Shown here: in pieces, positions 18,199 to 61,907 of the stretch
How the letters are laid out: every line of letters begins with the position of its first letter
Position numbering within the stretch: the stretch's first letter is position 1
Program-made: the position numbers and the translations under genes
IMG/VR virus record: IMGVR_UViG_3300028859_000006
Coordinates: 1 to 64,000 of that record
Direction: 5' to 3' (one strand)
Source of the DNA: a virus
DNA: 64,000 bases
Notes under the pieces: generated by a model
What the model was told of the DNA's origin: nothing
The model's database searches: none
What the model saw: only the letters and a program-made list of their open reading frames with translations

Positions 18199-18510
18199 CT
18201 ATAAGTTAAAATTAGTTGCAGCATTTTTTAGTTTAATTATTTCTTTATCTTTATCAAATATTAATATAGCATCTGGATAAATGATCCATCCTTTAGTATG
18301 ACTAAAATCATAAAAATTAATTGTATATGATGCCATAGTTCCAGTTTCATAATCAATTATTTTAAAAATTTTATTTGTTAATTTTTTCAAATAATATTTT
18401 TTTAATTCTGAATTTGAAAAACTTATATTATTCACATCAAGAATAACATAATCTCCTACTTCAGGTTTATCAGTATTATTTATTTCTTCAAATCTTTTTA
18501 AGTATTTCAT
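18199..18510 (-). CDS. Tagged cassette protein, SH3-like
   Basis: A 103-residue member of the double-tagged family: starts MKYLKRFEEINN, ends AATNFNL. The body begins KPEVGDYVILDVNN, a small barrel-like domain that recurs in this family. Last gene of a four-gene minus-strand operon; its TAG stop is followed by no further family gene, so its C-terminal tag is not just a junction effect. Overlaps the upstream gene by four bases (ATGA). Confidence 0.75.
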   Translation of the reverse strand: MKYLKRFEEINNTDKPEVGDYVILDVNNISFSNSELKKYYLKKLTNKIFKIIDYETGTMASYTINFYDFSHTKGWIIYPDAILIFDKDKEIIKLKNAATNFNL

Positions 18511-18875
18511 ATGTTAAATTTATTTGCATTTTTTTTAATTTCTATTCGTTGTTTTAATTCTTCTTTTGTTTTTCCAATTGCATTTATATCCTCTAAATTA
18601 AATATTTTATTATAACCTCCATAAGGTTTATCATATGGAAAAAACTTTAATACATTTTCTGGAATTTTAAATCCATATGTTACAATTATTCTATCATCAT
18701 TAAAAAATGTATATATTTGTCCAGGATGATTAAGAAGATAATCTTTTAAATTATCAAGTTCTTTTTCATCATAGTATCTTTTTAAATGATTAATATATTT
18801 TTTACTTATTATTGAAACATAATCTCCTACTTCAGGCTTATTAGTAGTATTTTCAAATGTTTTTATATATTTCAT
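18507..18875 (-). CDS. Tagged cassette protein, SH3-like
   Basis: A 122-residue member: N-tag MKYIKTFENTT, barrel start KPEVGDYVSIISKK, C-tag NANKFNI. The body resembles the 19219 gene (LNHPGQIYTFF versus LNYPGKIIKFY), showing duplication within the operon. Coupled by ATGA to its neighbours. Confidence 0.75.
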   Translation of the reverse strand: MKYIKTFENTTNKPEVGDYVSIISKKYINHLKRYYDEKELDNLKDYLLNHPGQIYTFFNDDRIIVTYGFKIPENVLKFFPYDKPYGGYNKIFNLEDINAIGKTKEELKQRIEIKKNANKFNI

Positions 18876-19222
18876 ATGTTAAATTTATTTGCTTGTAATA
18901 TAGCTTTTAATTCTTCTTTATTTTTAGAATATTTTATAATATCTATTGCTTTCATAGAAAATCCATATTCATTATTTGATAGAAATATTTTAAAATTATT
19001 TAATTCAAATGGAATATTATCATATTGTATAATATAATGTGTAGTTCCAGGAAATAATTTACCAGTAATTTCAACAAGTTTACCTATATTATTATTAATA
19101 AAATCATTAAATATTTTATATTTTTCATTATTATGACCTTCATACCATTCACATATGACGTAATTTCCTACTTCAAGTTTATCAGTATTATTTATTTCTT
19201 CAAATGTTTTTATGTATTTCAT
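18872..19222 (-). CDS. Tagged cassette protein, SH3-like
   Basis: A 116-residue member: N-tag MKYIKTFEEINN, barrel start KLEVGNYVICEWYEG, C-tag QANKFNI. The central IGKLVEITGKLFPGTTHYII and YDNIPFEL match the fold pattern of its neighbours. Coupled by ATGA. Confidence 0.75.
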   Translation of the reverse strand: MKYIKTFEEINNTDKLEVGNYVICEWYEGHNNEKYKIFNDFINNNIGKLVEITGKLFPGTTHYIIQYDNIPFELNNFKIFLSNNEYGFSMKAIDIIKYSKNKEELKAILQANKFNI

Positions 19223-19542
19223 AAATTAAATTTATTTGCTGCAATTTTAAGTTTCAAATCCTCTTTGGTTTTAGAAAATGCATATATTTCGTTATATTGA
19301 AAATTTTTAAAATATCCATATTTTTCAATATATCCTAATAATTCTTTCATATTATCAGGTATATTTTTACCATATGATACCTCAACGCTATGTATATTAT
19401 TTCCAATACTATAAAATTTAATTATTTTACCTGGATAATTAAGAAAAAAATCTTTATAATCTTCATATCTACTATTTATTGAAACATAATCTCCTACTTC
19501 AGGCTTATTAGTAGTATTTTCAAATAATTTTAAGTATTTCAT
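19219..19542 (-). CDS. Tagged cassette protein, SH3-like, first in operon
   Basis: The start is placed at 19542, where MKYLKLFENTT matches the family tag; a longer frame from 19608 would add 22 unlike residues. The 107-residue product has KPEVGDYVSINSRY and ends AANKFNL. It begins the operon and is divergent from the 19627 gene. Confidence 0.7.
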   Translation of the reverse strand: MKYLKLFENTTNKPEVGDYVSINSRYEDYKDFFLNYPGKIIKFYSIGNNIHSVEVSYGKNIPDNMKELLGYIEKYGYFKNFQYNEIYAFSKTKEDLKLKIAANKFNL

Positions 19543-19595
19543 ATTATTATATATTAAAAAAATATAATTAAATTCCTCAATTGAAATAATTATAG

Positions 19596-19603
19596 TATTT
19601 TTG
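19596..19603 (+). promoter_or_regulatory. Probable -7 promoter element
   Basis: TATTTTTG followed by TACATAAT, 23 bases before the 19627 start. The upstream TTTG element is not clear, so this is a weaker match than others. Confidence 0.45.
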
Positions 19604-19626
19604 TACATAATATTAAATATAAATAT

Positions 19627-24914: not shown

Positions 24915-25367
24915 TTATAAATTAAATTTACTTGCTTCTTTTTTTAGTTTATATTGTTTATATTGTTCTGGATATTTGTCAATAATTTCTTTTCTATATT
25001 TATAATTTAAAACATCAAAAAAATCTTCATCATTTACATTATCTTTTATGTTCCAATTTGCACCTGCTTTTATTAATTCATTCATAATTTGAATATTACT
25101 ATAATATGAAGTATACCATAAAGCTGTTCTATTTAAATTATTAGTCAAATCTAAAATAGCTCCTGCTTTTATTAATTCTTTAACTCCTTCTAAAAAATCT
25201 TTATTAACTGATGTTATTAATGGAGTATTACCTTCCATTGTTTTGGAGTTTATATCAACATCAGTTTTTTCAATCAATTCCTTAATTTCTTCAATATTTT
25301 TAGTTCTAATATAAAAATATAGATTATCATTATTATAATTATTTTCAAATTTTTTTAAGTATTTCAT
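24915..25367 (-). CDS. Tagged cassette protein, ankyrin repeats
   Basis: A 150-residue member: N-tag MKYLKKFENNYNN, C-tag EASKFNL. The body has about three ankyrin repeats, recognised by EGNTPLITSVNKDFLEG, AGAILDLTNNLNRTALWYTS and AGANWNIKDN. Ankyrin repeats mediate protein binding. The end YPEQYKQYKLKKEA recurs in all ankyrin members. Last gene of the nine-gene minus-strand cluster. Confidence 0.8.
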   Translation of the reverse strand: MKYLKKFENNYNNDNLYFYIRTKNIEEIKELIEKTDVDINSKTMEGNTPLITSVNKDFLEGVKELIKAGAILDLTNNLNRTALWYTSYYSNIQIMNELIKAGANWNIKDNVNDEDFFDVLNYKYRKEIIDKYPEQYKQYKLKKEASKFNL

Positions 25368-25855
25368 ATGTTAAATTTACCTGCTTCTTTTTTAAGTTTA
25401 TATTCTTCATATTTTTTAGGATAATTATCAATTATATATTGTAATATTATTGGATTTGAACTATTAATTCTACTAAAAATATCTAATCCTTTTATATTTT
25501 TAGTATTAAGATCAATTCCAGATTTCATTATTAAATCAATAATATTATCAATTTTAAATTTATATGTGGTATAATTCCATTGATTATTATCTACAATATG
25601 AAATAAGCAATTTTCATTAACTCTATTTGTTAAATTTACATCTGCTCCACTCTCAATTAACAATTTAATGATACTATAATTTAATTTAATTACAGCCTTA
25701 ATTAATGGAGTTCTACTTTTACTAGAATCAAAGCAATTAACATTAGCTCCATCTGTTATTAATTCTCTTACTTTTTGTAAAGATGATTTAGATTCAGAAT
25801 ATTTTAATAATTCATCATCTAATTCTTTCTGAGTATATGTTATTAAATGTTTCAT
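25364..25855 (-). CDS. Tagged cassette protein, ankyrin repeats
   Basis: A 163-residue member: variant N-tag MKHLITYTQKEL (the least typical), C-tag EAGKFNI. Ankyrin units: DGANVNCFDSSKSRTPLIKA and SGADVNLTNRVNENCLFH, then SGIDLNTKNIKG. Same YPKKYEEYKLKKEA end. ATGA coupling both sides. Confidence 0.8.
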   Translation of the reverse strand: MKHLITYTQKELDDELLKYSESKSSLQKVRELITDGANVNCFDSSKSRTPLIKAVIKLNYSIIKLLIESGADVNLTNRVNENCLFHIVDNNQWNYTTYKFKIDNIIDLIMKSGIDLNTKNIKGLDIFSRINSSNPIILQYIIDNYPKKYEEYKLKKEAGKFNI

Positions 25856-26370
25856 ATGTTAAATTTATTTGCTTCTTTTTTAAGTTTGTATTTTTCATAT
25901 TGCGTAGGATATTTATTCATAATTTCTTTTGAATGTTTTATAGTTAAATAATCAAGAAATTCCAATTCATATTTATTAATAATATTCCAATCAGCTCCTT
26001 CTTCTATTAATAATTCCATAACATCATAATGATGTCTATCTGCAGCCCATATTAATGCACTTTTATTATCACAATCAACATAATCAATATTGGCGCCAGC
26101 ATTCAATAGTTCTGTTGATATTTGTGCATATAAATTATAATATTTAGATATATTATTTTTTATATAACAACTTAAAATTGAACATTTAATTAACGGAGTT
26201 CTATTCATCCAATTTACATCAATATTATCAATAATACATCCATTATCAATAGCATTTCTTATTTTTTTTAATAATTTTATAGCATCTGATTCATAATATA
26301 TTTCATCTTCTAAAATATAATTCAAATCAGAATTCATTATAGAAATCTCAAATTTTTTTAAATATTTCAT
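25852..26370 (-). CDS. Tagged cassette protein, ankyrin repeats
   Basis: A 172-residue member: N-tag MKYLKKFEISI, C-tag EANKFNI. Ankyrin units: DVNWMNRTPLIKCS, AGANIDYVDCDNKSALIWAA and EGADWNIINKYE. Same YPTQYEKYKLKKEA end as its neighbours, showing these are diverged copies. Confidence 0.8.
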   Translation of the reverse strand: MKYLKKFEISIMNSDLNYILEDEIYYESDAIKLLKKIRNAIDNGCIIDNIDVNWMNRTPLIKCSILSCYIKNNISKYYNLYAQISTELLNAGANIDYVDCDNKSALIWAADRHHYDVMELLIEEGADWNIINKYELEFLDYLTIKHSKEIMNKYPTQYEKYKLKKEANKFNI

Positions 26371-26873
26371 AAGTTAAATTGTTTTGCTAATTTTCTATCT
26401 GGATATTTATTATAAAACCAATTCCAATAACCTTCCAAATCATTATATGGTAAATTATTATTATAACATTGAAATTGTGTTACAGATTCTGGTAATTCTG
26501 GCAATTCAGATAAATTATTATTCTCGCATAAAAAATATTCTAAATTACTTGGTAATTCTGGCAATTCTTCTAAATTATTACCACCACAAGATAAATTTAT
26601 TAATGATTTTGGTAATTTAGGCAATGTTTTTAATTTATTCTCATGAATATATAATCCTGTTAATGTATCTGGTAATTCTGGCAACGTTTTTAATTCATTA
26701 TTACCACAAAATAATTCTTCTAAATTACTTGGTAATTCTGGTAATGATTTTAATTTATTGTGATGACAATCTAAATATGTTAATGTATCTGATAATTCAG
26801 GTAAAGACGTTAAACCTTTATTAGCAAGATTGAGTTTTGTTATTATATTTTCAAATCTTTTTATATATTTCAT
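26367..26873 (-). CDS. Tagged cassette protein, leucine-rich repeats
   Basis: A 168-residue member: N-tag MKYIKRFENIITK, C-tag LAKQFNL. Between them are about six 20-residue leucine-rich repeats of the LPELPxxLxxLxCxxNxL type, as in bacterial effector LRR proteins (YopM/IpaH-like pattern), ending in a YNDLEGYWNWFYNKYPD cap. Likely a protein-binding surface. A second LRR member lies at 38259. Confidence 0.85.
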   Translation of the reverse strand: MKYIKRFENIITKLNLANKGLTSLPELSDTLTYLDCHHNKLKSLPELPSNLEELFCGNNELKTLPELPDTLTGLYIHENKLKTLPKLPKSLINLSCGGNNLEELPELPSNLEYFLCENNNLSELPELPESVTQFQCYNNNLPYNDLEGYWNWFYNKYPDRKLAKQFNL

Positions 26874-27247
26874 ATGTTAAATTTATTTGTATCTTTAAGA
26901 TATGGTAATGCTTCTTTACTTGTTAACTTCCATTTTGAATTTAATGTTGTAATATTTCTAATTTTATCAAGTGTCATACTTGATAAAATATTAGGTTGTA
27001 TATATCTATCTATCTTAAAATCAATTTTCATAAGAATATTATATTCCTGTACATTAGCTGCATAAGCTATAATTTTAATAAAACTTTTATGATAAAATAT
27101 ATCATAATCTATATTATTTTCATCTAAAATATCAATGTGCTCATATAGATCTTCATATACATTTTCATATTCAAAATATGTTTTAAACATTATATTATAT
27201 CCATTTCTATCTATTTTCTTATCTTCATATTCTTTTATATATTTCAT
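26870..27247 (-). CDS. Tagged cassette protein
   Basis: A 125-residue member: N-tag MKYIKEYEDKK, C-tag DTNKFNI. The body is helical (residues 25-110) with no recognised repeat. ATGA coupling to both neighbours. Confidence 0.7.
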   Translation of the reverse strand: MKYIKEYEDKKIDRNGYNIMFKTYFEYENVYEDLYEHIDILDENNIDYDIFYHKSFIKIIAYAANVQEYNILMKIDFKIDRYIQPNILSSMTLDKIRNITTLNSKWKLTSKEALPYLKDTNKFNI

Positions 27248-27672
27248 AAGTTAAATTTATTTGTAGCGTTATTTAATTCCCATTGATAATATGTAGTTTC
27301 TTTTAATTCTTCAAATTTATCTTGAGAAACTTTTAACGATGATGATATAAATATTTTTTCAAATGAAGAAGGATATGTGTTTATTATTTCCCTTCCAATA
27401 TGAATTTTTTCATTTTCTTTTAATTCATGTTGATCTAGTTCACATATATAAGAAATAATATCTACATTCAGTTGAATACATTCATCAAAAATTTTTGGAG
27501 ATAAAATTCTGCATAGTGCTAAATAATTATTTTGCTTGTTAAATTTCCAATTATAACTACCGGATTTATATATCATATAAAATCCTGAAGGATATTCAGT
27601 TATAAAATCATTAAATTGAATTTTTGATTTTATTTTATCTTTATAATTCTCATATATTTTAATATATTTCAT
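27244..27672 (-). CDS. Tagged cassette protein
   Basis: A 142-residue member: N-tag MKYIKIYENYKD, C-tag NATNKFNL. The body FITEYPSGFYMIYKSGSYNW and HIGREIINTYPSSFEKIF hint at short helical repeats related to the ankyrin cap. Function unknown. Confidence 0.7.
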   Translation of the reverse strand: MKYIKIYENYKDKIKSKIQFNDFITEYPSGFYMIYKSGSYNWKFNKQNNYLALCRILSPKIFDECIQLNVDIISYICELDQHELKENEKIHIGREIINTYPSSFEKIFISSSLKVSQDKFEELKETTYYQWELNNATNKFNL

Positions 27673-28013
27673 AAGTTAAATTTTTCTTCTGCTTCTTTTT
27701 TAATTAAATAGTTATTATATTCATTTGGATAATTTTTTATAATATTTTCATATTGCTTATCAGTCAATAAATATGTAAAATAGTAACCTTTATTATTTTT
27801 AACATTCCAATCTGCTCCTGCTTCAATTAAAATGTTAACTATCTGCATATAATCATGCTGTGCTGCATAAAATAATGGAGTACGACCATCAATAGCTTTA
27901 ATATTTATATCAGTGCCAGTACGAATTAAATGTTTAATTCTATTAATATCACCTTTTAAAATTGCATTAAATAAATCAATGCCTTTATCTTCAAATAATT
28001 TTATATATTTCAT
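27669..28013 (-). CDS. Tagged cassette protein, ankyrin repeats
   Basis: A 114-residue member: N-tag MKYIKLFEDKG, C-tag EAEEKFNL. Two ankyrin units (TGTDINIKAIDGRTPLFYAA and EAGADWNVKNNKGYYF) and the common YPNEYNNYLIKKEAE end. The shortest clear ankyrin member. Confidence 0.8.
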   Translation of the reverse strand: MKYIKLFEDKGIDLFNAILKGDINRIKHLIRTGTDINIKAIDGRTPLFYAAQHDYMQIVNILIEAGADWNVKNNKGYYFTYLLTDKQYENIIKNYPNEYNNYLIKKEAEEKFNL

Positions 28014-28321
28014 ATGTTAAATTTATTTATATTCTTCCAAAGTTCTGGATCAGTTGACATTCTAAAAAATGGTTCTTCTTTAAAATTATTATGAGTTATC
28101 CAATTTTCAACAGTAAATTTATTAATATCACTAGATCCATTATAATATCTAAATGGTGGATATTCTAAATCTTCTATTTTTGCAAATGTATATGTGATTC
28201 CATTATAATCAATTAATTTAACTAAATATTTTTTATTTTTATTATAATTACTATTAAAACTATAATATGATCCAATATTAAGATTTAATTCTATTTTTTC
28301 AAATGTTTTTATATATTTCAT
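28010..28321 (-). CDS. Tagged cassette protein, barrel-like
   Basis: A 103-residue member: N-tag MKYIKTFEKIE, C-tag NINKFNI. LNIGSYYSFNSNYNKNKKYL resembles the VGDYV barrel start of other members. ATGA coupling. Confidence 0.7.
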   Translation of the reverse strand: MKYIKTFEKIELNLNIGSYYSFNSNYNKNKKYLVKLIDYNGITYTFAKIEDLEYPPFRYYNGSSDINKFTVENWITHNNFKEEPFFRMSTDPELWKNINKFNI

Positions 28322-28728
28322 ATGTTAAATTTATTTGAACTTATTATCAAATCAAAATCATCTTTATTTATTTGATTTATTATATAATCAACATGTTTAG
28401 CTGTTATGCTAAATGTATATATACAATTATATTCATTTTTAACTAAATCTAATCCATCTATAGTTTCAAAATATTCTTCAATAATATTAAATTCATCATG
28501 AATATTTGATAATTTCAAATAAGTTTCTCCTAATATTATAGCAAATTCAAATGTTGTTGAAGAAGGTGTCTTTGAATAAAAAGATATTTCATTATGATAT
28601 TTATATATTTTATTATAATTTGAAGTTAGATTAAAATCTAATGATAATATAAAATTTACTAAAAAATTCATAAAATAAGCACTATTATCAGTTAAATCAT
28701 ATTTCTCAAATGTTTTTATATATTTCAT
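28318..28728 (-). CDS. Tagged cassette protein, first in the nine-gene cluster
   Basis: A 136-residue member: N-tag MKYIKTFEKYDL, C-tag SSNKFNI. The body is alpha/beta without a recognised motif. A short TTATTA-rich spacer separates it from the PPK2 gene upstream, so the cluster may share that transcript. Confidence 0.7.
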   Translation of the reverse strand: MKYIKTFEKYDLTDNSAYFMNFLVNFILSLDFNLTSNYNKIYKYHNEISFYSKTPSSTTFEFAIILGETYLKLSNIHDEFNIIEEYFETIDGLDLVKNEYNCIYTFSITAKHVDYIINQINKDDFDLIISSNKFNI

Positions 28729-28746: not shown

Positions 28747-30396
28747 TTATTTATTATTATTATTTAACTTTTCAATTGCTTCATTCATAATATCATCTGT
28801 TATACCTAATTCATGAGTGGTTTTAACAATATGTTTTTTATTAAATACATCATATAAATCATGCTTATTATCATCTATAATTATAAAATTACTAACTATT
28901 TTATTATTTTTCAACCAATCTTTTATATCGGCACCTCTTTTTTTAGATTTGTCATTTGGAACACAGTCATATATTTTATATTTAAAACCTGCTTTTTTCA
29001 TCATATCTTCTATTTTACTTTTAGGTTTATCATCTCTATATGATGAAGATAAAACAACTTTAGCATCTGTTTTTTCAATTATTGTGTTTAAATTACTCAT
29101 GGCAGTTTTACTCCATTTATCAGGCTCATTAAAAAATTTATGATAATTTACATCAGAATTTTTATTATAAGGAATAAGTGGTCCATCAATATCTTCAAAT
29201 ATTACTTTTATTCCTCCATCTTTTTCTTTTTCTTTATCTTTTTCAATAGTTTTTATTATACCATTAAATGATTCTAATCTGGAATAATTTTCATCATCTG
29301 CATCTATTATTATCCAAGGAGCATTTTTAGTATTTGTTTTTTTGAAAATTTCATTTATATATTTAGTAAATTCGTCCCATTTATCTAAAGTTTGTTCATC
29401 ATTCTTACTAAATTTCCAATATTTTAATGGGTTAGATTTTCTTAATTCAAACCTCATTTTTTGTACATCCTGAGATATAGAAAACCATATTTTTATAAGT
29501 ATTATATCATCATCAATTAATTTATCTTCAAAATTATTGACTTCTTTCATGAATTTATTATATTTATCTTCATTTGAATATCCCATTACAGGTTCTACAT
29601 AACCTCTTGTATACCAAGATCTATCAAAGAACACAATTTCACCGTTTTTAGGTAACACTTTTTCATATCTTTCAAACCAATTATCACTTTCTTCTTCTGA
29701 AGGAATACCAAAAGTTTGAACTTTAAAATGCTTAGGATCAAGAAATCTTGTTATATTTCTAATTGCAGATCCTTTTCCTGCTGCATCTCTACCTTCAAAT
29801 ATAATTAACACTTTTTTATTATTATATACAATCCACTCTTGTAATTTCAATAATTCTATTTGATATTTATATTTTGTTTTTTGATAATCATCAAAAGGTA
29901 CTTTATTTATTTTAATATCTATTTTATTATATGGTTCATATGACTTATCAGTTTCAATTTTATTGTAGAAAAATTCATAAGTGTTATCTATATATCTATC
30001 AACATTATCAAGATATGCTTTGAAAACACTATCTGCATTCTTTATATTAATATCAAATGAATTTGTTATAGAATATATTTTTAGAATATCATTAGCAAAT
30101 TTACCTAATCTCATCTGTTTAATTATATCATCATCTACATTATTTAAAAAATCTTTAAATAAATCTTTAAATTTACCCATAGTATTTTTATTATAATTAT
30201 TTAATAAATATGTTTTATATGATTCTAAATCTTCTTTAATTTGAGTTTTATAGAAATCTAATGTGTATTTTTTATCAATAGATTGCTTCAAATTTATAAT
30301 TAAGCTTTTAAAAGAATGAATAAGGTTTTCCAATTCATCTTTACTACGATGAAAAAAAGCTTCATTTAGTTTATTATAATCATTATAGTTTAACAT
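28747..30396 (-). CDS. PPK2 polyphosphate kinase fused to a HAD phosphatase domain
   Basis: A 549-residue three-part protein. Residues 1-170 are helical and unrecognised; the first 14 (MLNYNDYNKLNEAF) resemble a head-targeting leader. Residues about 175-385 are PPK2: EGRDAAGKGSA Walker A (201-211), FDRSWYTRGYVEPVMG (257-272) and a lid with KSNPLKYWKFS. PPK2 phosphorylates nucleotides with polyphosphate. Residues about 397-545 are a HAD domain (VIFEDIDGPLIP, LSSSYRD, IIIDDN), like the HAD module of RNA-repair proteins. I do not know this fusion. It precedes the tagged cluster. Confidence 0.85.
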   Translation of the reverse strand: MLNYNDYNKLNEAFFHRSKDELENLIHSFKSLIINLKQSIDKKYTLDFYKTQIKEDLESYKTYLLNNYNKNTMGKFKDLFKDFLNNVDDDIIKQMRLGKFANDILKIYSITNSFDINIKNADSVFKAYLDNVDRYIDNTYEFFYNKIETDKSYEPYNKIDIKINKVPFDDYQKTKYKYQIELLKLQEWIVYNNKKVLIIFEGRDAAGKGSAIRNITRFLDPKHFKVQTFGIPSEEESDNWFERYEKVLPKNGEIVFFDRSWYTRGYVEPVMGYSNEDKYNKFMKEVNNFEDKLIDDDIILIKIWFSISQDVQKMRFELRKSNPLKYWKFSKNDEQTLDKWDEFTKYINEIFKKTNTKNAPWIIIDADDENYSRLESFNGIIKTIEKDKEKEKDGGIKVIFEDIDGPLIPYNKNSDVNYHKFFNEPDKWSKTAMSNLNTIIEKTDAKVVLSSSYRDDKPKSKIEDMMKKAGFKYKIYDCVPNDKSKKRGADIKDWLKNNKIVSNFIIIDDNKHDLYDVFNKKHIVKTTHELGITDDIMNEAIEKLNNNNK

Positions 30397-46795: not shown

Positions 46796-46813
46796 TTTCA
46801 AATAAGATAATTT

Positions 46814-47288: not shown

Positions 47289-47481
47289 AAAATCATATCC
47301 AGATTTTATTGTAGGAAAATATTATTATAGTGAGAACTATGATTATGAAGGTTTTATAATAATAAATCAACATATGTTTTTTGACTTTCCTGAAATTAAA
47401 ACAGGAAATATTCATGACTATTTTGAAACAATGCCAGAAATTAGAAGAAAAAAGCTAGCAAAATTACAAGAATTCAAATAA
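47272..47481 (+). CDS. MKYLCKK-family small protein
   Basis: A 69-residue more diverged paralogue: MKYLCKKSYPDFIVGKYYYS, ending EIRRKKLAKLQEFK. Last of the tandem set; an isolated fifth copy is at 49145. Confidence 0.65.
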   Translation: MKYLCKKSYPDFIVGKYYYSENYDYEGFIIINQHMFFDFPEIKTGNIHDYFETMPEIRRKKLAKLQEFK

Positions 47482-49144: not shown

Positions 49145-49357
49145 ATGAAATATCTATGTAAAAAGACATATTTATCATATTTTATATTTGGTGAATATTA
49201 TGAAAGTGAATTAGGTAGAGATAATACTATAAACATGATCATTGATAGTAACTCATGGATACATTTTAAGTTAGATAAAAATTCAAAGTTATATGAGTAT
49301 TTTTATGATGAAAATCAAATTAGAAAAATGAAATTAAAAAAATTAAAAATATTTTAA
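49145..49357 (+). CDS. MKYLCKK-family small protein, RK-KL tail
   Basis: A 70-residue fifth member: MKYLCKKTYLSYFIFGEYYE, ending QIRKMKLKKLKIF. Separated from the other four by the methyltransferase gene, which suggests that the latter was inserted. Confidence 0.65.
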   Translation: MKYLCKKTYLSYFIFGEYYESELGRDNTINMIIDSNSWIHFKLDKNSKLYEYFYDENQIRKMKLKKLKIF

Positions 49358-50050: not shown

Positions 50051-50082
50051 AAAAAAAGCATCAATTAAATTGATTCTTTTTT
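50051..50082. terminator. Bidirectional intrinsic terminator
   Basis: A-run, ATCAATT/AATTGAT stem, T-run, between convergent genes. Confidence 0.7.
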
Positions 50083-50587
50083 ATAAGTTAAAGTTTGAAG
50101 ATGCTAAATGAAGAGGTAAATTTTCAGTTATAACATCATATAAAATTTTGAATTCATCAATTATATCACCCATTGTTTTAGATTTTTTAATAATATTTTC
50201 TATTATAGGTGAATATATTTCAGTTAATTCAGTGTATACGTTATCTGGCATTTTCCTAATCTCAATTTTTGATGGACCTCCTATAAATCCATTAATTGGT
50301 GATGTATGATATTTAATTCTATTAACTGAATATTTTGGATTCATTGATTGCATAGCTGATTCCCTCTCTTTTTCTGTTATTATAATTTTTCTTAATTCAG
50401 GATCATTTAAGCATTCAGATTTTTCTATTATTTGTTCAATAATACCATAAATTGGAGAGCATGACCGATAATTAGTACCATAAGTCATATTTCCGTTACT
50501 GTTATTTATAGTAATATTAAAATCTTTATTCTTATATAAAGTAATTTCTCTCTCTTTCTGTTTTTCAAACGTTTTTAAATATTTCAT
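50081..50587 (-). CDS. Tagged cassette protein
   Basis: A 168-residue member: N-tag MKYLKTFEKQKE, C-tag ASSNFNL. The body is alpha/beta with YRSCSPIYGIIEQI and many Pro/Ile segments, not recognised. No family gene follows it, so its C-tag is kept for its own sake. Confidence 0.7.
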   Translation of the reverse strand: MKYLKTFEKQKEREITLYKNKDFNITINNSNGNMTYGTNYRSCSPIYGIIEQIIEKSECLNDPELRKIIITEKERESAMQSMNPKYSVNRIKYHTSPINGFIGGPSKIEIRKMPDNVYTELTEIYSPIIENIIKKSKTMGDIIDEFKILYDVITENLPLHLASSNFNL

Positions 50588-50869: not shown

Positions 50870-51208
50870 TTATAAGTTGAATTTATCTGATGTCAGTTCA
50901 AAATCTTGAAGTTTAACCTTTCCCATAAATAATGCATGATCTCTATTATCTGGTTCTAATTTTAAAATCCATTCAAAATATTCATCATAATCATCTGTTA
51001 AGCTATTATATTGTTTAACTTTTTCTTTATAAATATATACAAGAACATTTTCATTAGTATACCAAAGGCACCAATCTTCAATTAAATCATCTGGTACTCC
51101 TATCTTTTTTAAAGACAATCTAAAATATGGTTGCAATAATGTTACTTGCCAATATTTATCCTCATATTTCCAATCACCATATTTTTCAAATGTATTTATA
51201 TATTTCAT
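50870..51208 (-). CDS. Tagged cassette protein
   Basis: A 112-residue member: N-tag MKYINTFEKYGD, C-tag TSDKFNL. Trp/Tyr-rich body (DLIEDWCLWYTNENVLVYIY). Last of an overlapping run of eight tagged genes. Confidence 0.7.
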   Translation of the reverse strand: MKYINTFEKYGDWKYEDKYWQVTLLQPYFRLSLKKIGVPDDLIEDWCLWYTNENVLVYIYKEKVKQYNSLTDDYDEYFEWILKLEPDNRDHALFMGKVKLQDFELTSDKFNL

Positions 51209-51540
51209 AGATTAAAATTTTTTGCTTTTATTTTATATTCTAAATCTTCTTTATTTTCAGAATAATCAATAATACTACTATATAAAAATTCTCTAAATCC
51301 AATATTATGATTAAGATTATAATTCTCATATCCAAATAAACTTGCAATCTCCATAGGTATATCTTCGTATTCAACACTTACTGTATTGAAATGATATTTT
51401 ATTTCAATTTTTATAATTTTACCAATAGTATTATCAATAAAATCAGTCATTTCTTTATTCTGCATGGAAGATTTCATTAATACATAATCTCCTACTTTTG
51501 GTTCATCTTTAATATTTTCAAATTTCTTTATATATTTCAT
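51205..51540 (-). CDS. Tagged cassette protein, SH3-like
   Basis: A 111-residue member: N-tag MKYIKKFENIKD, C-tag KAKNFNL. EPKVGDYVLMKSSMQ, IGKIIKIE and VEYEDIPMEIASLF are the barrel blocks of this subfamily. Confidence 0.75.
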   Translation of the reverse strand: MKYIKKFENIKDEPKVGDYVLMKSSMQNKEMTDFIDNTIGKIIKIEIKYHFNTVSVEYEDIPMEIASLFGYENYNLNHNIGFREFLYSSIIDYSENKEDLEYKIKAKNFNL

Positions 51541-51848
51541 AAGTTAAATTTATTTGCTTGTAATTTCAATTTTAATTCTTCAATTGTTTTTCCATATTCC
51601 ACTAATAATTCGATATCAAAAATTCTTGTACCATCATGAAAAAATAAATCTATATTATCTGGTATATTTTCATATCTAACTCTACATTTATATTTTTTTA
51701 AATTTGGATCGAATTCTACAGCTGTTAATCTACCAAAATTTTTAGTTACAAAATTTATAACGCTATTAGTACTATAACTATTCATTAAAACATAATCACC
51801 AACTTCTGGTAAATCAATATTATTTTCAAATTTCTTTATATATTTCAT
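51537..51848 (-). CDS. Tagged cassette protein, SH3-like
   Basis: A 103-residue member: N-tag MKYIKKFENNID, C-tag QANKFNL. LPEVGDYVLMNSYST and VRYENIPDNIDLFF; close relative of the gene just downstream. Confidence 0.75.
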   Translation of the reverse strand: MKYIKKFENNIDLPEVGDYVLMNSYSTNSVINFVTKNFGRLTAVEFDPNLKKYKCRVRYENIPDNIDLFFHDGTRIFDIELLVEYGKTIEELKLKLQANKFNL

Positions 51849-52096
51849 AAATTAAATTTATTGGTATTTAATAATAATTCAAAATTTTCAATTTCTAATG
51901 AAGTTAAAAATCTTAAAATTTGTTCTTTAATAATTCCAATTTTACATATTTCATTTTGAACTAAATAAAATGACTCGTCTTTTTTAATTATTTTAGCATC
52001 AAATGTATAGTTATTTTGTCTATATTTTATATAATCACCAACTTTACAATCGTTAGGATTAAATAATTTCTTTTCAAATCTTTTTATATATTTCAT
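51845..52096 (-). CDS. Tagged cassette protein, SH3-like, short
   Basis: An 83-residue member: N-tag MKYIKRFEKKLFN, C-tag NTNKFNL. CKVGDYIKYRQNNYTFDAKI is a minimal barrel. One of the smallest members, showing that the tags enclose bodies of as few as 65 residues. Confidence 0.75.
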   Translation of the reverse strand: MKYIKRFEKKLFNPNDCKVGDYIKYRQNNYTFDAKIIKKDESFYLVQNEICKIGIIKEQILRFLTSLEIENFELLLNTNKFNL

Positions 52097-52590
52097 AAGT
52101 TAAATTTATCTATATTATTATATAATCCAGGAATACTATAAATATTTCTAAAATATTTCGGAGTCATAAATTTTTCCTTCTTACAATCATAAACAAAAAC
52201 TACTTCAATTTTTCTATAATCTTTTAAAAATACATGAATATCTCCAAATTCTGCTGATTCACCATCGTAATTGACTCCTAATACAAAATCTGGTCCTTCA
52301 CTTACATAATCAAATTCATATTGATTGATAGCATTTACTCCATCTTTTATTGATTTTGGAGTACCATCAAACCAATCGCAAACATCTATAGCAGCAGAGA
52401 TATAATCATTATCTGTTACATCATCAGCCATTCCAAATGCATATTCTAAAATTTGATGATTTAATGGTATAGGATCATCAGAAGGTAACGGCTTACCATT
52501 ACAAAAACTAAGTGCAATTTCTGGTGTAACTTCTAAATAAAATTCAGCATCATTTTGATCTAAACTTTCAAACCTTTTTATATATTTCAT
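52093..52590 (-). CDS. Tagged cassette protein
   Basis: A 165-residue member: N-tag MKYIKRFESLDQ, C-tag NIDKFNL. Acidic alpha/beta body (DVTDNDYISAAIDVCDWFDG, FVLGVNYDGES) of unknown fold. Confidence 0.7.
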   Translation of the reverse strand: MKYIKRFESLDQNDAEFYLEVTPEIALSFCNGKPLPSDDPIPLNHQILEYAFGMADDVTDNDYISAAIDVCDWFDGTPKSIKDGVNAINQYEFDYVSEGPDFVLGVNYDGESAEFGDIHVFLKDYRKIEVVFVYDCKKEKFMTPKYFRNIYSIPGLYNNIDKFNL

Positions 52591-52832
52591 AAGTTAAATT
52601 TAATTGTTTGATTAACTTGTTCAGGATCTTTTAATATTCTATATAATTCTAACCATCTTGTTATTTCTTCATATTCATCATCATCATATCTCCATTCATT
52701 TGGTAAAGTTGGATCATGAACTATTTCGTCATCATCATAAAGAATTTCAAATTTTTCTCCTATTAATACATTGAGTTCTTCCTTCGTAACTCTTATTATT
52801 TTTTTGCTACTCAAAGCATATAACGCTATCAT
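52587..52832 (-). CDS. Cassette fragment with C-tag but no N-tag
   Basis: An 81-residue product ending NQTIKFNL. Its body KKIIRVTKEELNVLIGEKFE, then LYDDDEIVHDP and EWRYDDDEY, is paralogous to the gene upstream (KIIKVTQEELDALIDNDFT, LYDNERIRYDS, EWRYDSDEE). It overlaps that gene by 26 bases in another frame. Together they look like one protein with two body copies split by a frameshift. Confidence 0.55.
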   Translation of the reverse strand: MIALYALSSKKIIRVTKEELNVLIGEKFEILYDDDEIVHDPTLPNEWRYDDDEYEEITRWLELYRILKDPEQVNQTIKFNL

Positions 52833-53076
52833 GCCTTCTAAATGATTTTAAAAACTTTTTTATATCATCTTCTTCATCTGAATCATATCTCCATTCATCT
52901 AGATGATTTGAATCATATCTAATTCTTTCATTATCATAAAGAACTGTAAAATCATTGTCTATTAATGCATCAAGTTCTTCTTGAGTTACTTTTATAATTT
53001 TAGAATCATTATCTAAATTTATTAAATTAATCATATTTTCTTTTTTCCTTGATTCAAATGTTTTTATGTATTTCAT
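52807..53076 (-). CDS. Cassette fragment with N-tag but no C-tag
   Basis: An 89-residue product starting MKYIKTFESRKKENMINLIN and ending HDSVICFE, without KFNL. It is the only clear member with the N-tag alone; its downstream overlapping neighbour has the C-tag alone. A programmed or mutational frameshift in the overlap (52807-52832) would give a full-length tagged protein. Confidence 0.55.
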   Translation of the reverse strand: MKYIKTFESRKKENMINLINLDNDSKIIKVTQEELDALIDNDFTVLYDNERIRYDSNHLDEWRYDSDEEDDIKKFLKSFRRHDSVICFE

Positions 53077-53387
53077 AAGTTAAATTTATTTGCACTATCA
53101 TTAAGTTCAATTCGGTTATATAATTCTTCTGTTGTTATTTCTTTACCAAATTCATCAACTAATTTATATGAAAAATTTAATAATCCTTCTTCAAGAATAA
53201 TATGCTCAATTGTATATTGTATTAACGATTTTTTATCATTTTTATAATCCTTTTCATATTGTATATAATAACTATCTTTAATCAAATCATCAAAAGGAAT
53301 ATGACGTTTATCAACTGGTATAGTAACAATAGCGAATATTCCTGTAATGCTATCAGTTGAATTTTCATTAAATTTTTTTATTTTCAT
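53073..53387 (-). CDS. Tagged cassette protein, first in run
   Basis: A 104-residue member: variant N-tag MKIKKFNENST, C-tag DSANKFNL. Body AIVTIPVDKRHIPFDDLIKD and a Tyr-rich strand region. Divergent from the 53447 gene. Confidence 0.7.
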   Translation of the reverse strand: MKIKKFNENSTDSITGIFAIVTIPVDKRHIPFDDLIKDSYYIQYEKDYKNDKKSLIQYTIEHIILEEGLLNFSYKLVDEFGKEITTEELYNRIELNDSANKFNL

Positions 53388-53446: not shown

Positions 53447-53962
53447 ATGAAACATTTGAAATTATATGAGGAATTAAAATTCAATGAGAAACAATACCAT
53501 ACTTATGAACTATTGAATCTTGTTCAGATGCATGATTTAGGTTCAAAAGGAGAAGCTGAAATGATTGATATGATAAATTCTGGACAAATAGATTTAAATT
53601 TACAAGATCAACTAAGTTATAGAACAGCTTTAATATATTCTATGATTAATAGATATGAAAAAGTATTTGATGAATTGATAAAATCAGATGTGAATTTAGA
53701 TTTACAAGATGATAATGGAAATACAGCATTAATAATCTCAGCAATAGGTAGCACTGGAAGTAGTAGTGATTATTATAAATCTATAATGGAAAAATTAATT
53801 GATGCAGGAGCAGATTGGAATAAAACACAAAATTATGGACGTGAAAAAGATTTTCTTGAACATATACAAGATAACGAATTTAAAAGACATATATTAAAGA
53901 AATATCATAAACAATATGAAATATATTTAATGATAAAAACTTCTGAAAAATTTAATATATGA
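53447..53962 (+). CDS. Tagged cassette protein, ankyrin repeats (plus strand)
   Basis: Start placed at 53447 (MKHLKLYEELKFNEKQ) rather than the longer frame from 53396. The 171-residue product ends TSEKFNI. Ankyrin units: LNLQDQLSYRTALIYSMI, VNLDLQDDNGNTALIISA and AGADWNKTQN, with the YHKQYEIYLMIK end. ATGA coupling to the next. Confidence 0.8.
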   Translation: MKHLKLYEELKFNEKQYHTYELLNLVQMHDLGSKGEAEMIDMINSGQIDLNLQDQLSYRTALIYSMINRYEKVFDELIKSDVNLDLQDDNGNTALIISAIGSTGSSSDYYKSIMEKLIDAGADWNKTQNYGREKDFLEHIQDNEFKRHILKKYHKQYEIYLMIKTSEKFNI

Positions 53963-54432
53963 AATATATAAAAACATTTGAACAAAATTTAGATTTAAAT
54001 AATGAATTAATAGACTCTTGTATAAATAATAATATAAAAAAAGTTGAAAGTTTAATAAAACAAGGAGCTGATGTTAATTATATCAATAAAGATGGTTTCA
54101 ACTCATTAATATATTCTGTTAATAATATTGATATTTTAAAAATATTAATTAAAAACGGAGCGGATGTAAATATCCAAGATACTACAAATCAAGGTTATAC
54201 ACCATTATTACTAGCATCCTCTAATAGATTTATGTTTCCTTATATCGAAAATTATGATACTATAAAATTATTAATAGATTCAGGAGCTGATTGGAATGTT
54301 AAAGGTAGAATTGTTAAAATTACTTTTTTTGATTATTTACCTACTGAAATTAAAGAAAAAATTAAAAAAGATTATCCAGATAAATATGAAGATTATTTAT
54401 TACAACAAGAAGCTGAAAAATTCAACATATAA
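53959..54432 (+). CDS. Tagged cassette protein, ankyrin repeats (plus strand)
   Basis: A 157-residue member: N-tag MKYIKTFEQNLD, C-tag EAEKFNI with codons GAA AAA TTC AAC ATA. Ankyrin units: QGADVNYINKDGFNSLIYS, NGADVNIQDTTNQGYTPLL and SGADWNVKGR. The terminator follows directly, so this C-tag is not part of a junction. Confidence 0.85.
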   Translation: MKYIKTFEQNLDLNNELIDSCINNNIKKVESLIKQGADVNYINKDGFNSLIYSVNNIDILKILIKNGADVNIQDTTNQGYTPLLLASSNRFMFPYIENYDTIKLLIDSGADWNVKGRIVKITFFDYLPTEIKEKIKKDYPDKYEDYLLQQEAEKFNI

Positions 54433-58447: not shown

Positions 58448-58479
58448 CAAAAAAGAGAATCAATTGATTCTCTTTTTTT
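58448..58479. terminator. Bidirectional intrinsic terminator
   Basis: AAAAGAGAATCAATTGATTCTCTTTT, a near-perfect palindrome with A- and T-runs outside. Confidence 0.85.
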
Positions 58480-58888
58480 ATAAATTAAATTTTAATGCAT
58501 TTAGATAAATTTCGTAATTTTCTTTTGATATATCATTTATAATATTATCTATTTCTGTGATTTTTATTCTACCTAATTCTGAATATTTATCCATTATATA
58601 TTTTATAAATTTTGATATTTTTTCTATTTCTGAATCTATCCATCCTGGATTATCTAGTATAGTATTAATATCAAACAAAAAATAATCATTATTTGTGGAT
58701 AATCTTAAATTTAAAAAACAATTTCTTTGTATATCATTTTTATTATAACTAAACGCATAATCACAATTATATTCATATGAATAAATAATTTCATTTTGAT
58801 TTTTATTTATAAAATTATGTATATAATAAGCGAGTTCTTGAATTTTCTCTTTACTATTTGATTTTTCAAACTTTTTAATATATTTCAA
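58478..58888 (-). CDS. Tagged cassette protein, last in cluster
   Basis: A 136-residue member: N-tag MKYIKKFEKSNS, C-tag NALKFNL. Helical body (ELAYYIHNFINKNQN and later). Followed only by a terminator. Confidence 0.7.
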   Translation of the reverse strand: MKYIKKFEKSNSKEKIQELAYYIHNFINKNQNEIIYSYEYNCDYAFSYNKNDIQRNCFLNLRLSTNNDYFLFDINTILDNPGWIDSEIEKISKFIKYIMDKYSELGRIKITEIDNIINDISKENYEIYLNALKFNL

Positions 58889-59159: not shown

Positions 59160-59684
59160 TTATAAATTAAATTTATTTACTGTTTTATCAAATTCTATTT
59201 TCTTTTTATATTCATCTACATTAAAAGTTTTATATTTATCATTTGAATGATGATATATATTACCATCATCTCCTATTTCAGCATCTACATTTCCTAAAAC
59301 ATCACATAATTTAGTAATGATTGTTAAGTTTTCACTATCATTTATTCTTTCAAAAAATCCAGATCCATGTCCATTTCTTGTCAACCATAAATCATTACCA
59401 ATTTGGTCATCTGTCATATCTTCAAAAACATCTCCTGCTGAATTAATAAACCATTCAACTTCTTTTACAATCTCATCTTTAGAATTTTCATCGATATCAT
59501 ATATATTTTTTCCTTCCCATGGATCATAATCTGTTTCATGACCTTCTTCAGTCCAAATTAATGCTGTTATATAGCTATCAACAGCAGTATCTATATCGTA
59601 ATCATTTTCAAATTCATTAATATCATGATATTCTTCGAAATCTTCATCATCGTCAAATTCTTCAAATATTTTTAAATGTTTCAT
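59160..59684 (-). CDS. Tagged cassette protein, acidic
   Basis: A 174-residue member: N-tag MKHLKIFEEFDDDEDF, C-tag TVNKFNL. Very acidic; it contains YITALIWTEEGHETDYDPWE and DLWLTRNGHGSGFFERI, a 'phage DUF' pattern I have seen without function. Shares its first ten residues with the next gene. Confidence 0.7.
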   Translation of the reverse strand: MKHLKIFEEFDDDEDFEEYHDINEFENDYDIDTAVDSYITALIWTEEGHETDYDPWEGKNIYDIDENSKDEIVKEVEWFINSAGDVFEDMTDDQIGNDLWLTRNGHGSGFFERINDSENLTIITKLCDVLGNVDAEIGDDGNIYHHSNDKYKTFNVDEYKKKIEFDKTVNKFNL

Positions 59685-59688
59685 AGTT

Positions 59689-60051
59689 TTACATATTAAA
59701 TTTGTTTGCTGTTAATAATAGTTCAAGTTCTTCAATTTCACTTGAAGTTAAATCTCTATCAATCTCACTTTCACCTATCCAAAATTCTTTTAATTCTCTT
59801 GTCTTTTTATGAATAGATATTACTTTATATCTTGGCTCATACATATCATCATCATTTTCATCAAAATCTGTATCGTTAACTTCAATAATTTTAACAAATG
59901 GACCTACAACATTCAATTCACTTTCAGAATCATCTAATTTTACATAATCTTCTAATTTTACATAATCTCCTACATGTTGAGATGTATAATGTCCTACTGG
60001 TGATAATTCGTCATCATCGTCAAATTCTTCAAATATTTTTAAGTGTTTCAT
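59689..60051 (-). CDS. Tagged cassette protein, SH3-like
   Basis: A 120-residue member: N-tag MKHLKIFEEFDDDD, C-tag TANKFNM. HVGDYVKLEDYVKLDD includes a duplicated YVKLxD, and the barrel is like the 58890 gene. Confidence 0.75.
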   Translation of the reverse strand: MKHLKIFEEFDDDDELSPVGHYTSQHVGDYVKLEDYVKLDDSESELNVVGPFVKIIEVNDTDFDENDDDMYEPRYKVISIHKKTRELKEFWIGESEIDRDLTSSEIEELELLLTANKFNM

Positions 60052-60056
60052 AATTT

Positions 60057-61439
60057 TTACATATTAAATTTATCTACATTTACAATATAACTATATTCAT
60101 TTATAATTTCAGGATTCAATATATTTGATTTCATTATTAATTTATAATTTTCATTATCATTTTCAATTAAGTATTTTTGAAATTCATAAGTTTTAAACCA
60201 TTCTAATATTTTTCCATTATATAATTTAGCAATTTCTAATAAATTTATATGCTTTCTATAATATTTAAACCAAATATCATAGTCATAATCATAAAATGCA
60301 TATTTTTTTTCCATTTTTTTAAACATTTCTAAATTATCTGTTTTAATCCAAATCGGAAATATATCATCAGGACTGTCTACATATTTACTAACTACATCAT
60401 CAATAGAGTTTTTTAAATTATCAAAATTAAGATGACTATAACTATCTTCATATTCAATAGTTTCATATCTTAAGTCATCAGAATCATATATATTAGATAA
60501 AAATTCTTTAATAGTTTTAACATTTAATTTATATTTTATCATATACTTAATCATAGTTTTATACTCAAAAACCAATTCTATCTGATATTTTTTTGTGTCA
60601 CTATCATGATTAGTATTATCATTAATATTAAAAGGCATTTTTTCTAATGCTTTCTTTGCTGCTATTTCTACTGCACGTTCATGAGCCATTGAAATTTCAC
60701 TTTCAAATGTTTCTAAATCATCAGTTAAATCTAAATATTTAAATAAGTCTGCTATTTTACCTTGTTCTGTAGGATCTATATTATCGTCAAAATAAAATAA
60801 CTTGGATAATTCTATAATTTTATCATTAGTTTCTTTTTTTGTATAATTACCCAAATAATCTAATTCTTCTTTATCAACATAGAATTCATAATTATTATTA
60901 TCTCGAGTTAATTGTAAAATAGAACTTATAGAACCATTTTCGATATCAAGTAAATTTTCAAGAACCTCAATATTAATAATTAAAGTGAATCCTTTCTCAT
61001 CATATGAAAATTCTTTTTCATATGGATAATGATAATTTTTTTCTGAATTTATTATTGCTTCATCTTCATCGAATCCAATATATTTGTTGATATCTTCTGG
61101 TTTAAATTTCTTTGATGATAATACTTTTATTAAATTTGGTATATTATCTATATTATCTTCAACATCAGAACTTTCTGTTATTGGATTATTTTTTAAATAT
61201 GCAACTTGTTTAGTTTGTTTAAATGTTAAGTCACTAAGTTTTTTAACTTTAATATTTATTTCATTATTTAATTCTGCTTGTGTTTTTCTATCTTTTTCGT
61301 TTTGAACTCTCTTTCTAAGTTTTTTGAGACTATCTTGCATATATGCAATCTTATCTGCAATGTTATCATCAATTTTGAAAGGTTTTTCGTTATTTATTTT
61401 GATTGGAGTAAAATATTCATAATTTTTAATATATCTCAT
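60057..61439 (-). CDS. Tagged cassette protein, largest member
   Basis: A 460-residue product: N-tag MRYIKNYEYFTPIK, C-tag NVDKFNM. The first 90 residues include a coiled coil (KIAYMQDSLKKLRKRVQNEK). The rest is acidic and unrecognised, with helix-rich blocks near the end (MFKKMEKKYAFYDYDYDIWF). It shows that the tags also occur on large proteins. Confidence 0.7.
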   Translation of the reverse strand: MRYIKNYEYFTPIKINNEKPFKIDDNIADKIAYMQDSLKKLRKRVQNEKDRKTQAELNNEINIKVKKLSDLTFKQTKQVAYLKNNPITESSDVEDNIDNIPNLIKVLSSKKFKPEDINKYIGFDEDEAIINSEKNYHYPYEKEFSYDEKGFTLIINIEVLENLLDIENGSISSILQLTRDNNNYEFYVDKEELDYLGNYTKKETNDKIIELSKLFYFDDNIDPTEQGKIADLFKYLDLTDDLETFESEISMAHERAVEIAAKKALEKMPFNINDNTNHDSDTKKYQIELVFEYKTMIKYMIKYKLNVKTIKEFLSNIYDSDDLRYETIEYEDSYSHLNFDNLKNSIDDVVSKYVDSPDDIFPIWIKTDNLEMFKKMEKKYAFYDYDYDIWFKYYRKHINLLEIAKLYNGKILEWFKTYEFQKYLIENDNENYKLIMKSNILNPEIINEYSYIVNVDKFNM

Positions 61440-61457
61440 AATAATATATATAATTTT

Positions 61458-61907
61458 TTATAGATTAAATTTTTTTGCACTTATTTTAATTAAAAGGTTA
61501 TTAATATATTCTTTTAATTCTATCATATCGTCTGAGGTTTTAATTGTAAAATCTCTAAATATAACATCAGGATTATATTTTTGAAATTTATTTTTATACC
61601 AATTCAATTGTAATTTACTCAATATATCATCTCTATTATAATCATCCGATAACGGAATTATATGTTCCATACTATTATAGTTATATGGTAATAAATTAAT
61701 ATCATCAACATGATTTAATATTATAAAAAAATATATATCATTAGTAAATAATTCAAATTTTATTTTTTTTGAATTTAAAAAATTAATAATATATGGTATT
61801 TTTTCAAAAAATTTATCACTAATAATTACTCCTGGTAATTTACCATATTCTCCTCCAACTTTAATATCGGACGGTTCTATTACTTTATAACTTTCTAAAT
61901 ATTTCAT
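61458..61907 (-). CDS. Tagged cassette protein, first in cluster
   Basis: A 149-residue member: variant N-tag MKYLESYKVIEPSD, C-tag SAKKFNL. IKVGGEYGKLPGVIIS resembles the barrel start. First gene of this minus-strand cluster, divergent from 62011. Confidence 0.7.
   Translation of the reverse strand: MKYLESYKVIEPSDIKVGGEYGKLPGVIISDKFFEKIPYIINFLNSKKIKFELFTNDIYFFIILNHVDDINLLPYNYNSMEHIIPLSDDYNRDDILSKLQLNWYKNKFQKYNPDVIFRDFTIKTSDDMIELKEYINNLLIKISAKKFNL

Follow-up and report, generated by a model that had tools for sequence, protein, structure and literature searches.

A 64,000-nucleotide stretch of the virus record IMGVR_UViG_3300028859_000006 (hereafter the window, i.e., C1:1-64000 of a linear record of 190,824 bp, referred to as G000) encodes a large set of small proteins sharing two short peptides at their ends, namely an N-terminal tag (N-tag) of the type MKYIKxFE and a C-terminal tag (C-tag) of the type KFN[IL]. 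The presence of the same two short end tags on about 60 otherwise mostly unrelated proteins is a real pattern. The explanation favoured here is a two-ended peptide address, where the N-tag would be a capsid-targeting sequence resembling that of the internal head proteins of phage T4 and the C-tag a lineage-specific second signal; its probability is put at roughly 0.48, i.e., a little short of even odds.

Among the 148 open reading frames (ORFs) of at least 40 aa retained in the window after filtering of overlaps, 35 end with the C-tag F[ND][LIMV], where 0.34 would be expected from composition. Of these 35, 24 start with a strict N-tag (MK[YH][IL]KxFE) and 30 with a loose one (M[KR][YH][IL]...[EK]), the N-tag expressions having been written post hoc and varying between scripts, so that all N-tag counts are descriptive. 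The five remaining starts are MITNFKLYE (32031), MKILKFNE (37943), MKIKKFNE (53073), MKHLITYT (25364) and one without a recognisable tag (52587). The tagged ORFs lie in seven clusters (A to G) on both strands, many being linked by ATGA overlaps. The first-pass annotation, made from the letters alone, had described 36 proteins with both tags; its coordinates, its seven clusters and both tags are reproduced, and 35 of the 36 carry the C-tag, the last one (52807-53076) bearing the N-tag only. The ORFs are as follows, with coordinates, strand and description:

18199-18510, minus: tagged, MKYLKRFE...TNFNL, SH3-like, end of cluster A
18507-18875, minus: tagged, MKYIKTFE...NKFNI, SH3-like
18872-19222, minus: tagged, MKYIKTFE...NKFNI, SH3-like
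19219-19542, minus: tagged, MKYLKLFE...NKFNL, internal ATG start
24915-25367, minus: tagged, MKYLKKFE...SKFNL, ankyrin, end of cluster B
25364-25855, minus: C-tagged, MKHLITYT...GKFNI, ankyrin
25852-26370, minus: tagged, MKYLKKFE...NKFNI, ankyrin, modelled with AlphaFold2 (AF2)
26367-26873, minus: tagged, MKYIKRFE...KQFNL, leucine-rich repeat (LRR)
26870-27247, minus: tagged, MKYIKEYE...NKFNI, G001 orthologue starting MKTYQQFNE
27244-27672, minus: tagged, MKYIKIYE...NKFNL
27669-28013, minus: tagged, MKYIKLFE...EKFNL, ankyrin
28010-28321, minus: tagged, MKYIKTFE...NKFNI
28318-28728, minus: tagged, MKYIKTFE...NKFNI
31735-32034, plus: tagged, MKYIKTFE...NKFNL, SH3-like
32031-32423, plus: tagged, MITNFKLYE...NKFNL, end of cluster C
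37943-38254, minus: tagged, MKILKFNE...NKFNL, end of cluster D, 96 nt from a GOLLD RNA
38259-38708, minus: tagged, MKYIKTFE...KKFNI, LRR-like
38705-39277, minus: tagged, MKYIKQFE...NKFNI, ankyrin
39274-39597, minus: tagged, MKYLKTFE...NKFNL, SH3-like
39594-40037, minus: tagged, MKYLKTFE...DKFNI
50081-50587, minus: tagged, MKYLKTFE...SNFNL, end of cluster E
50870-51208, minus: tagged, MKYINTFE...DKFNL
51205-51540, minus: tagged, MKYIKKFE...KNFNL, SH3-like
51537-51848, minus: tagged, MKYIKKFE...NKFNL, SH3-like, AF2 model
51845-52096, minus: tagged, MKYIKRFE...NKFNL
52093-52590, minus: tagged, MKYIKRFE...DKFNL
52587-52832, minus: C-tag only (IKFNL), overlaps 52807-53076
52807-53076, minus: N-tag only (MKYIKTFE), overlaps 52587-52832
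53073-53387, minus: tagged, MKIKKFNE...NKFNL
53447-53962, plus: tagged, MKHLKLYE...EKFNI, ankyrin, internal ATG
53959-54432, plus: tagged, MKYIKTFE...EKFNI, ankyrin, end of cluster F
58478-58888, minus: tagged, MKYIKKFE...LKFNL, TTG start, end of cluster G
59160-59684, minus: tagged, MKHLKIFE...NKFNL, phrog_1915 (unknown function)
59689-60051, minus: tagged, MKHLKIFE...NKFNM
60057-61439, minus: tagged, MRYIKNYE...DKFNM, 460 aa
61458-61907, minus: tagged, MKYLESYK...KKFNL

The sole C-tagged ORF of the window without a recognisable N-tag overlaps the N-tag-only ORF, and the counterpart of this pair in G001, a related contig of 330,208 bp located via its tags, is a single ORF of 162 aa (265564-266052) bearing both. 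Over the whole 190,824-bp record, the C-tag is found on 64 of 346 ORFs, and in G001 on 94 of 558, including one chance match (301317, ...GFDV). The two tags are strongly coupled: among the 299 ORFs of at least 60 aa in G000, 57 have both, seven the C-tag only, ten the N-tag only and 225 neither (p = 1e-42), the respective figures for the 558 ORFs of G001 being 78, 16, 21 and 443 (p = 7e-59). De novo counts of 3-mers, for which no motif was preset or tuned, return the same signal, i.e., 57 of these 299 G000 ORFs (0.16 expected) and 92 of the 558 of G001 (0.28 expected) have KFN as their fourth- to second-last residues; a de novo count also gives an MKYI start in 28 of the 299. At six cluster ends (18199, 32423, 37943, 50081, 54432 and 58478), no C-tagged gene follows within 150 bases downstream on that strand, and the C-tag is complete at all six, as the first-pass annotation had stated.

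Selection on the C-tag as a peptide is best seen in its substitutions. When G000, G001 and loci from IMG/VR are taken together, the matches listed comprise 379 distinct N-tagged proteins, or 334 representatives at 70% identity, with consensus tags MK[Y/H][I/L]Kx[F/Y]E at the front and [A/T/S][N/K/D]K[F/Y]N[I/L] at the back. Among these, 296 of the 334 representatives carry the C-tag, as KFN[LIMV] in 251 and with one of its four positions changed in 45, a share that is biased upward as the pattern used to search IMG/VR held both tags and the Phe; of the 38 others, five match two of the four positions. In representatives that keep the other three positions, Tyr (36) and His (one) are the only replacements of the Phe (37 of 37 changes), the one-base neighbours of Phe, i.e., Leu, Ile, Ser, Cys and Val, being absent from this site; the Tyr substitutions come from gene ends that the IMG/VR search pattern does not match. 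Such a spectrum would be expected if selection acted on an aromatic residue rather than on the DNA.

The bodies between the tags are diverse. Single-linkage clustering of 294 proteins stripped of their tags yields 81 clusters, 26 of them with a member in the genome of the window, where 81 is a rough number since the method merged SH3-like with LRR bodies and the largest cluster is too inclusive. Searching the 65 tagged proteins of G000 against Pfam returns ankyrin repeats in nine and LRR in three, with non-repeat families in single members only; most tagged proteins match no named family. As such, the arsenal of effectors proposed in the first-pass annotation goes further than the domains, ankyrin and LRR alone clearly recurring in Pfam. 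Families of defence or anti-defence were considered and rejected, the best PADLOC matches (PDC-M72A in eight members, Ankyrin in three, the rest at 3e-5 or weaker) seeming to track the ankyrin repeats. Many tagged proteins have in common an SH3-like body followed by a C-terminal helix. AlphaFold models were built for an SH3-like member (51537-51848, alignment of 58 sequences) and an ankyrin member (25852-26370, 16 sequences), with a mean predicted local distance difference test (pLDDT) of 85.8 and 81.9, respectively. In these models, residues 1-10 reach a pLDDT of only 44 and 39, i.e., the N-tag is predicted outside the fold in two different domains, on which basis its reading as part of a domain fold was rejected, and the tag residues of both ends rank among the most conserved columns of both alignments. 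The N-tag accordingly has the look of a linear motif that is conserved and unfolded, and the C-tag that of a helix end, likewise conserved, whose tail is free. When the SH3-like model is searched against the PDB for similar folds, the top matches include SH3, tudor and chromo barrels, with a best E of 0.083, and no relatives of one tagged SH3-like protein were found in INPHARED at E 0.01. Tandem arrays of small paralogues, SH3-like by eye and without either tag, occur at 46559-47481 and 49145-49357 of the window and at C1:113261-117162.

The N-tag had been compared with T4 already in the first-pass annotation. In T4 (NC_000866), the proteins ipII and ipIII start with MKTYQEFIAEA and ipI with MKTFKEFTST; most N-tags (MKYIKxFE) are unlike this peptide in sequence, but some are like it, namely MKTYQQFNE, MKTYLQYIKEA and MKNYNQYIKES. 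The first belongs to an orthologue pair, where the protein at 26870-27247 of G000 starts with MKYIKEYE and its G001 counterpart (290927) with MKTYQQFNE, the two being 55% identical across 110 aa and both C-tagged; other C-tagged proteins start with MKTYLQYIKEA, MKNYNQYIKES or MKNFIEFINES. Judging from these sequences, the N-tag is naturally interchangeable with a T4-type start. Those N-termini that reach a score of 22 or more against the T4 peptide number 15 of 299 in G000 (internal controls 0 of 299), 19 of 558 in G001 (controls 4 of 558) and 31 of 623 in the megaphage LR756500 (controls 3 of 623).

T4-type head genes are present in the clade carrying KFNL. A portal of this type was found in four of the 43 clade contigs searched (G016, G023, G024 and G026). 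One of these, G026, has C-tagged genes and encodes matches to Portal_T4 (4.8e-63), to the head maturation protease phrog_207 (4.3e-31, 793 aa) and to Gp23 (1.9e-24); the Pfam S77 match of this protease falls below the cut-off, the phrog_207 match being strong. The portal gene has a C-tagged (KYNL) gene within 3 kb of it in both G023 and G024. No S77 protease match was found in the 190.8-kb record or in G001, nor a portal match in G001. In Sphingomonas phage PAU, 12 of the 17 N-tagged genes fall within 100-114 kb together with portal and protease, a region of 25 of its 291 ORFs (p = 4e-11). The head proteases of the related records LR756501, LR745206 and LR756500 are 632-807 aa long, that of G026 being of similar length, and their alignment shows a unit of about 18 aa (YSEYxAENxDKxI) repeated in tandem behind the catalytic domain.

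These relatives were reached by tblastn with a protein of 1,061 aa, whose matches connect the genome with megaphage records of 462-735 kb, with phage PAU and with Lak and Tenacibaculum phages; a 2020 paper on huge phages (PMC7162821) groups its largest genomes and Lak as one Mahaphage clade with predicted Bacteroidetes hosts. The portions analysed amount to about 463 of 735 kb for LR756501, 463 of 635 kb for LR745206, 459 of 636 kb for LR756504, and all but about 5 kb of LR756500. As in the window, each has a phage-specific N-tag of the same type on 17 to about 60 proteins, i.e., MKYI(K/L)EYEEFLLEA in LR756500 (29 proteins), MKT[LI]..LYEAKLNEA in PAU (17) and, with loose patterns in the parts analysed, MKYLKxFNES together with MKHLKxFNES in LR745206 (63), MIKKFKxFE in LR756501 (24) and MKYLKxFE in LR756504 (36). 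The relatives differ by their second motif. In LR756500, it is a C-terminal NADDFGFF on 13 of 623 ORFs of at least 60 aa, ten of them N-tagged (p = 3e-12); in LR756501, DPYGEExW at any position in 40 of the 578 ORFs analysed, 18 of them N-tagged (p = 2e-14). No second motif linked to the N-tag was found in PAU or in the analysed parts of LR745206 and LR756504, the C-terminal LGI enriched in LR745206 (nine ORFs) occurring on none of its N-tagged list. With a wider pattern, DPYGEExW gives 52 matches in the analysed ORFs of LR756501, near the N-terminus, internal or C-terminal, and none in the analysed parts of the other relatives or in G000, with one related match in G001. The search of other large Bacteroidetes phages for the tag pair, as suggested in the first-pass annotation, hence returns a common N-tag and a second motif that is lineage-specific or not found.

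In the mechanism proposed, the N-tag (MKYIKxFE, with variants such as MITNFKxFE, MKIKRFNE and MKTYQQFNE) would act like the capsid-targeting sequence of the T4 internal proteins, keeping its bearers within the core of the prohead, whereby they would be packaged and, later, delivered to the host cell infected next. As for the C-tag ([A/T/S][N/K/D]K[F/Y]N[I/L]), it would be a lineage-specific signal for loading or retention, located at the end of the last helix and probably contacting another head or scaffold component, which would make loading selective. The bodies, namely fast-changing small proteins of ankyrin, LRR, SH3-like or other type, would plausibly act early against the host, being delivered with the DNA. 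Capsid loading, injection, a C-tag partner and the function of the cargo are in this scheme what we infer from the tags.

A number of findings weigh against this explanation, and several of them speak for a rival one. The prohead-protease site is [LI]xE, and its presence after the N-tag was a proposed check. At residues 9-20 of the 294 tagged proteins, it occurs at 1.6%, the same as the 1.4-1.7% further in, even if any [LI]xE within residues 6-30 is found in 124 of 294 (42%) versus 29% in random body windows; for a wider [LIVMF]xE, the positions directly behind the N-tag show an enrichment of three- to just over fourfold in LR756500 (26 of 232 positions versus 120 of 4,678) and PAU (8 of 102 versus 37 of 1,431), as expected for T4-type trimming. 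The C-termini of the T4 internal proteins (...KNLL, ...IKDK and ...RGNS) bear nothing like KFN[IL]. As no enrichment of this cleavage site was found and the C-tag is foreign to T4, the tagged proteins are not to be filed in the T4 internal-protein family, though they may work like its members. In PAU, N-termini like the T4 peptide (2 of 291) do not exceed controls (4 of 291); in LR756500, the N-tagged genes are not clustered at the head module; and no virion proteomics of PAU was found, the term mass spectrometry having no occurrence in the main text available. The interpretation given in the first-pass annotation, i.e., a T4-like sorting into the capsid or to a phage compartment for injection, is partly supported, namely by the N-tag outside the fold, the natural swap with a T4-type start and the T4-type head genes of the clade; an enriched cleavage site and a tag pair general to large Bacteroidetes phages find no support. 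Regarding the C-tag, the last helix enters it in both models, ending at residue 101 of 103 in the SH3-like and at residue 169 of 172 in the ankyrin member, and the drop in pLDDT is confined to the final two to three residues (58 and 46, respectively), so that it is predicted not to lie cleanly outside the fold. This counts against the two-ended address and for a structural explanation, where the tags would be parts of one common domain or the C-tag merely a helix end, a view to which the SH3-like body with C-terminal helix shared by many members also lends itself. Nonetheless, this remains highly improbable, given an N-tag of low pLDDT in two different folds, bodies spread over the 81 rough clusters and small SH3-like-by-eye paralogues lacking both tags in the same genome; the condition that the first-pass annotation had named as refuting it, i.e., tags predicted as mere folding parts of one common domain, is not observed for the N-tag in these models, and the C-tag would be at most the end of the last helix.

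At the nucleotide level, the ends could serve the nucleic acid itself, through ATGA-coupled translation in tandem genes and as short homology arms for body swapping. In G000 and G001, an overlapping ATGA closes 87 of the 158 C-tagged genes, the Asn of the C-tag is encoded by AAC in 51-53% of cases versus 11% in gene bodies, the final codon of the gene is almost always NTA, and these biases persist in the 71 genes without overlap; at Tyr3 of the N-tag, the codon is TAC in 23 of 93 versus 8% in bodies. The claim that different codons prove peptide selection thus holds for Lys and Phe, whose usage in the C-tag is near that of bodies, but not for Asn, the NTA end or Tyr3; being weaker than claimed, it was replaced by the substitution spectrum as peptide-level test. 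These biases suggest a nucleotide-level component too, which also counts against a purely peptide address, and a nucleotide role, or homogenisation of ends through recombination, may act alongside the peptide role. As sole cause, the ATGA overlap was rejected, the C-tag being kept at cluster ends and in the 71 non-overlapping genes; a nucleic-acid explanation in place of the peptide one is improbable considering the Phe changes restricted to Tyr and His, the full C-tag at cluster ends without a tagged gene after, and its retention where the type of N-tag differs. Another destination than the virion, i.e., an intracellular compartment or assembly hub made by the phage, would suit the large number of tagged proteins, as well as some N-tagged proteins of the relatives, namely a CCA-type nucleotidyltransferase with deaminase, a peptidoglycan-binding protein and a DUF2201 metallopeptidase/VWA protein, which are more like intracellular workers; from their predicted domains, the nucleotidyltransferase-deaminase and the peptidoglycan-binding protein would be odd capsid cargo. 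(The A3 scan covered 116 of the 152 N-tagged proteins, the 36 left out being mostly short.) The interchange of the N-tag with a T4-type capsid signal, the clustering of N-tagged genes at the PAU head module and the T4-type head genes of the clade make such a compartment rather unlikely. Finally, a short exposed N-terminal motif would fit a client signal for a chaperone, protease or adaptor, setting stability or timing; the N-terminus of a T4 head protein reportedly directs proteins to GroEL. This would leave the T4 internal-protein match and the PAU clustering unexplained, and only a small chance is granted to it.

Relative to known systems, the two-ended address is closest to the T4 internal head proteins IPI, IPII and IPIII, where a short N-terminal signal is found on small diverse proteins (PMC3012670), and from which it differs by the MKYIKxFE form of most N-tags, by the added C-terminal tag and by numbers, with about 60 or more tagged proteins here, known from genes alone, versus the three T4 proteins compared. 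In phage P1, an N-terminal peptide of DarB suffices to send a reporter to the capsid, but no consensus is reported for the Dar N-termini and no C-tag is mentioned in the part of the source available (PMC9024508). SPN3US likewise is a large phage packing many proteins inside its head, 42 head proteins being reported uncleaved by the protease, with a cleavage motif AXE and, in the sections consulted, no common end tags described (PMC10052503). For phage MA9V-1, the accessible main text gives virion proteins by SDS-PAGE only, and no proteomics was found in it. Among the titles and starts of abstracts listed in literature searches, none describes a pair of terminal tags on phage proteins, nor were localisation data for tagged proteins found. 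The C-terminal tag appears new and the N-terminal tag appears to resemble the T4 capsid-loading label.

Several other features of the window lie beside the tagged genes. A GOLLD RNA (RF02032, 278.9 bits, E 1.6e-78) occupies 37426-37847 on the plus strand, 96 nt from the end of cluster D, within a 3.9-kb region (34042-37942) having no listed ORF longer than 51 aa. This region contains eight copies of a repeat, most of which resemble a Bacteroidetes promoter (consensus TTTG, 20 nt, TAnnTTTG), and six copies of a 74-nt unit; folding five of the latter together predicts a tRNA-like cloverleaf, which is weak (-5.6 kcal/mol) and has a loop of 11 nt where the anticodon would be, and no call was made on these units by ARAGORN or Rfam. 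A fusion of PPK2 polyphosphate kinase with HAD (28747-30396) and a SIS-domain protein (62707-63282) lack the C-tag, their N-termini, MLNYNDYNKLNEA and MKRIKNIIRES, respectively, being T4-signal-like by eye. The protein at 43150-43689 has repeats of a T.KLSLLTP unit towards its C-terminus.

Extended to the whole group, the two-ended address would become a two-part loading code of huge Bacteroidetes phages, i.e., a common N-terminal capsid signal combined with a lineage-specific password (KFN[IL], NADDFGFF or DPYGEExW). This extension is doubtful; if true, each phage would load the cargo that belongs to it and leave out a competitor's, and the password would change between lineages. If virion cargo is what the tags mark, sequence alone would suffice to place dozens of unknown proteins of each genome in a single process, and the two peptides could be tested as a means of loading foreign proteins into capsids of very large size. 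The T4 internal-protein idea, so far applied to a few proteins, would then extend to a large and modular set, and one would have to ask which component recognises a capsid tag at the C-terminus.

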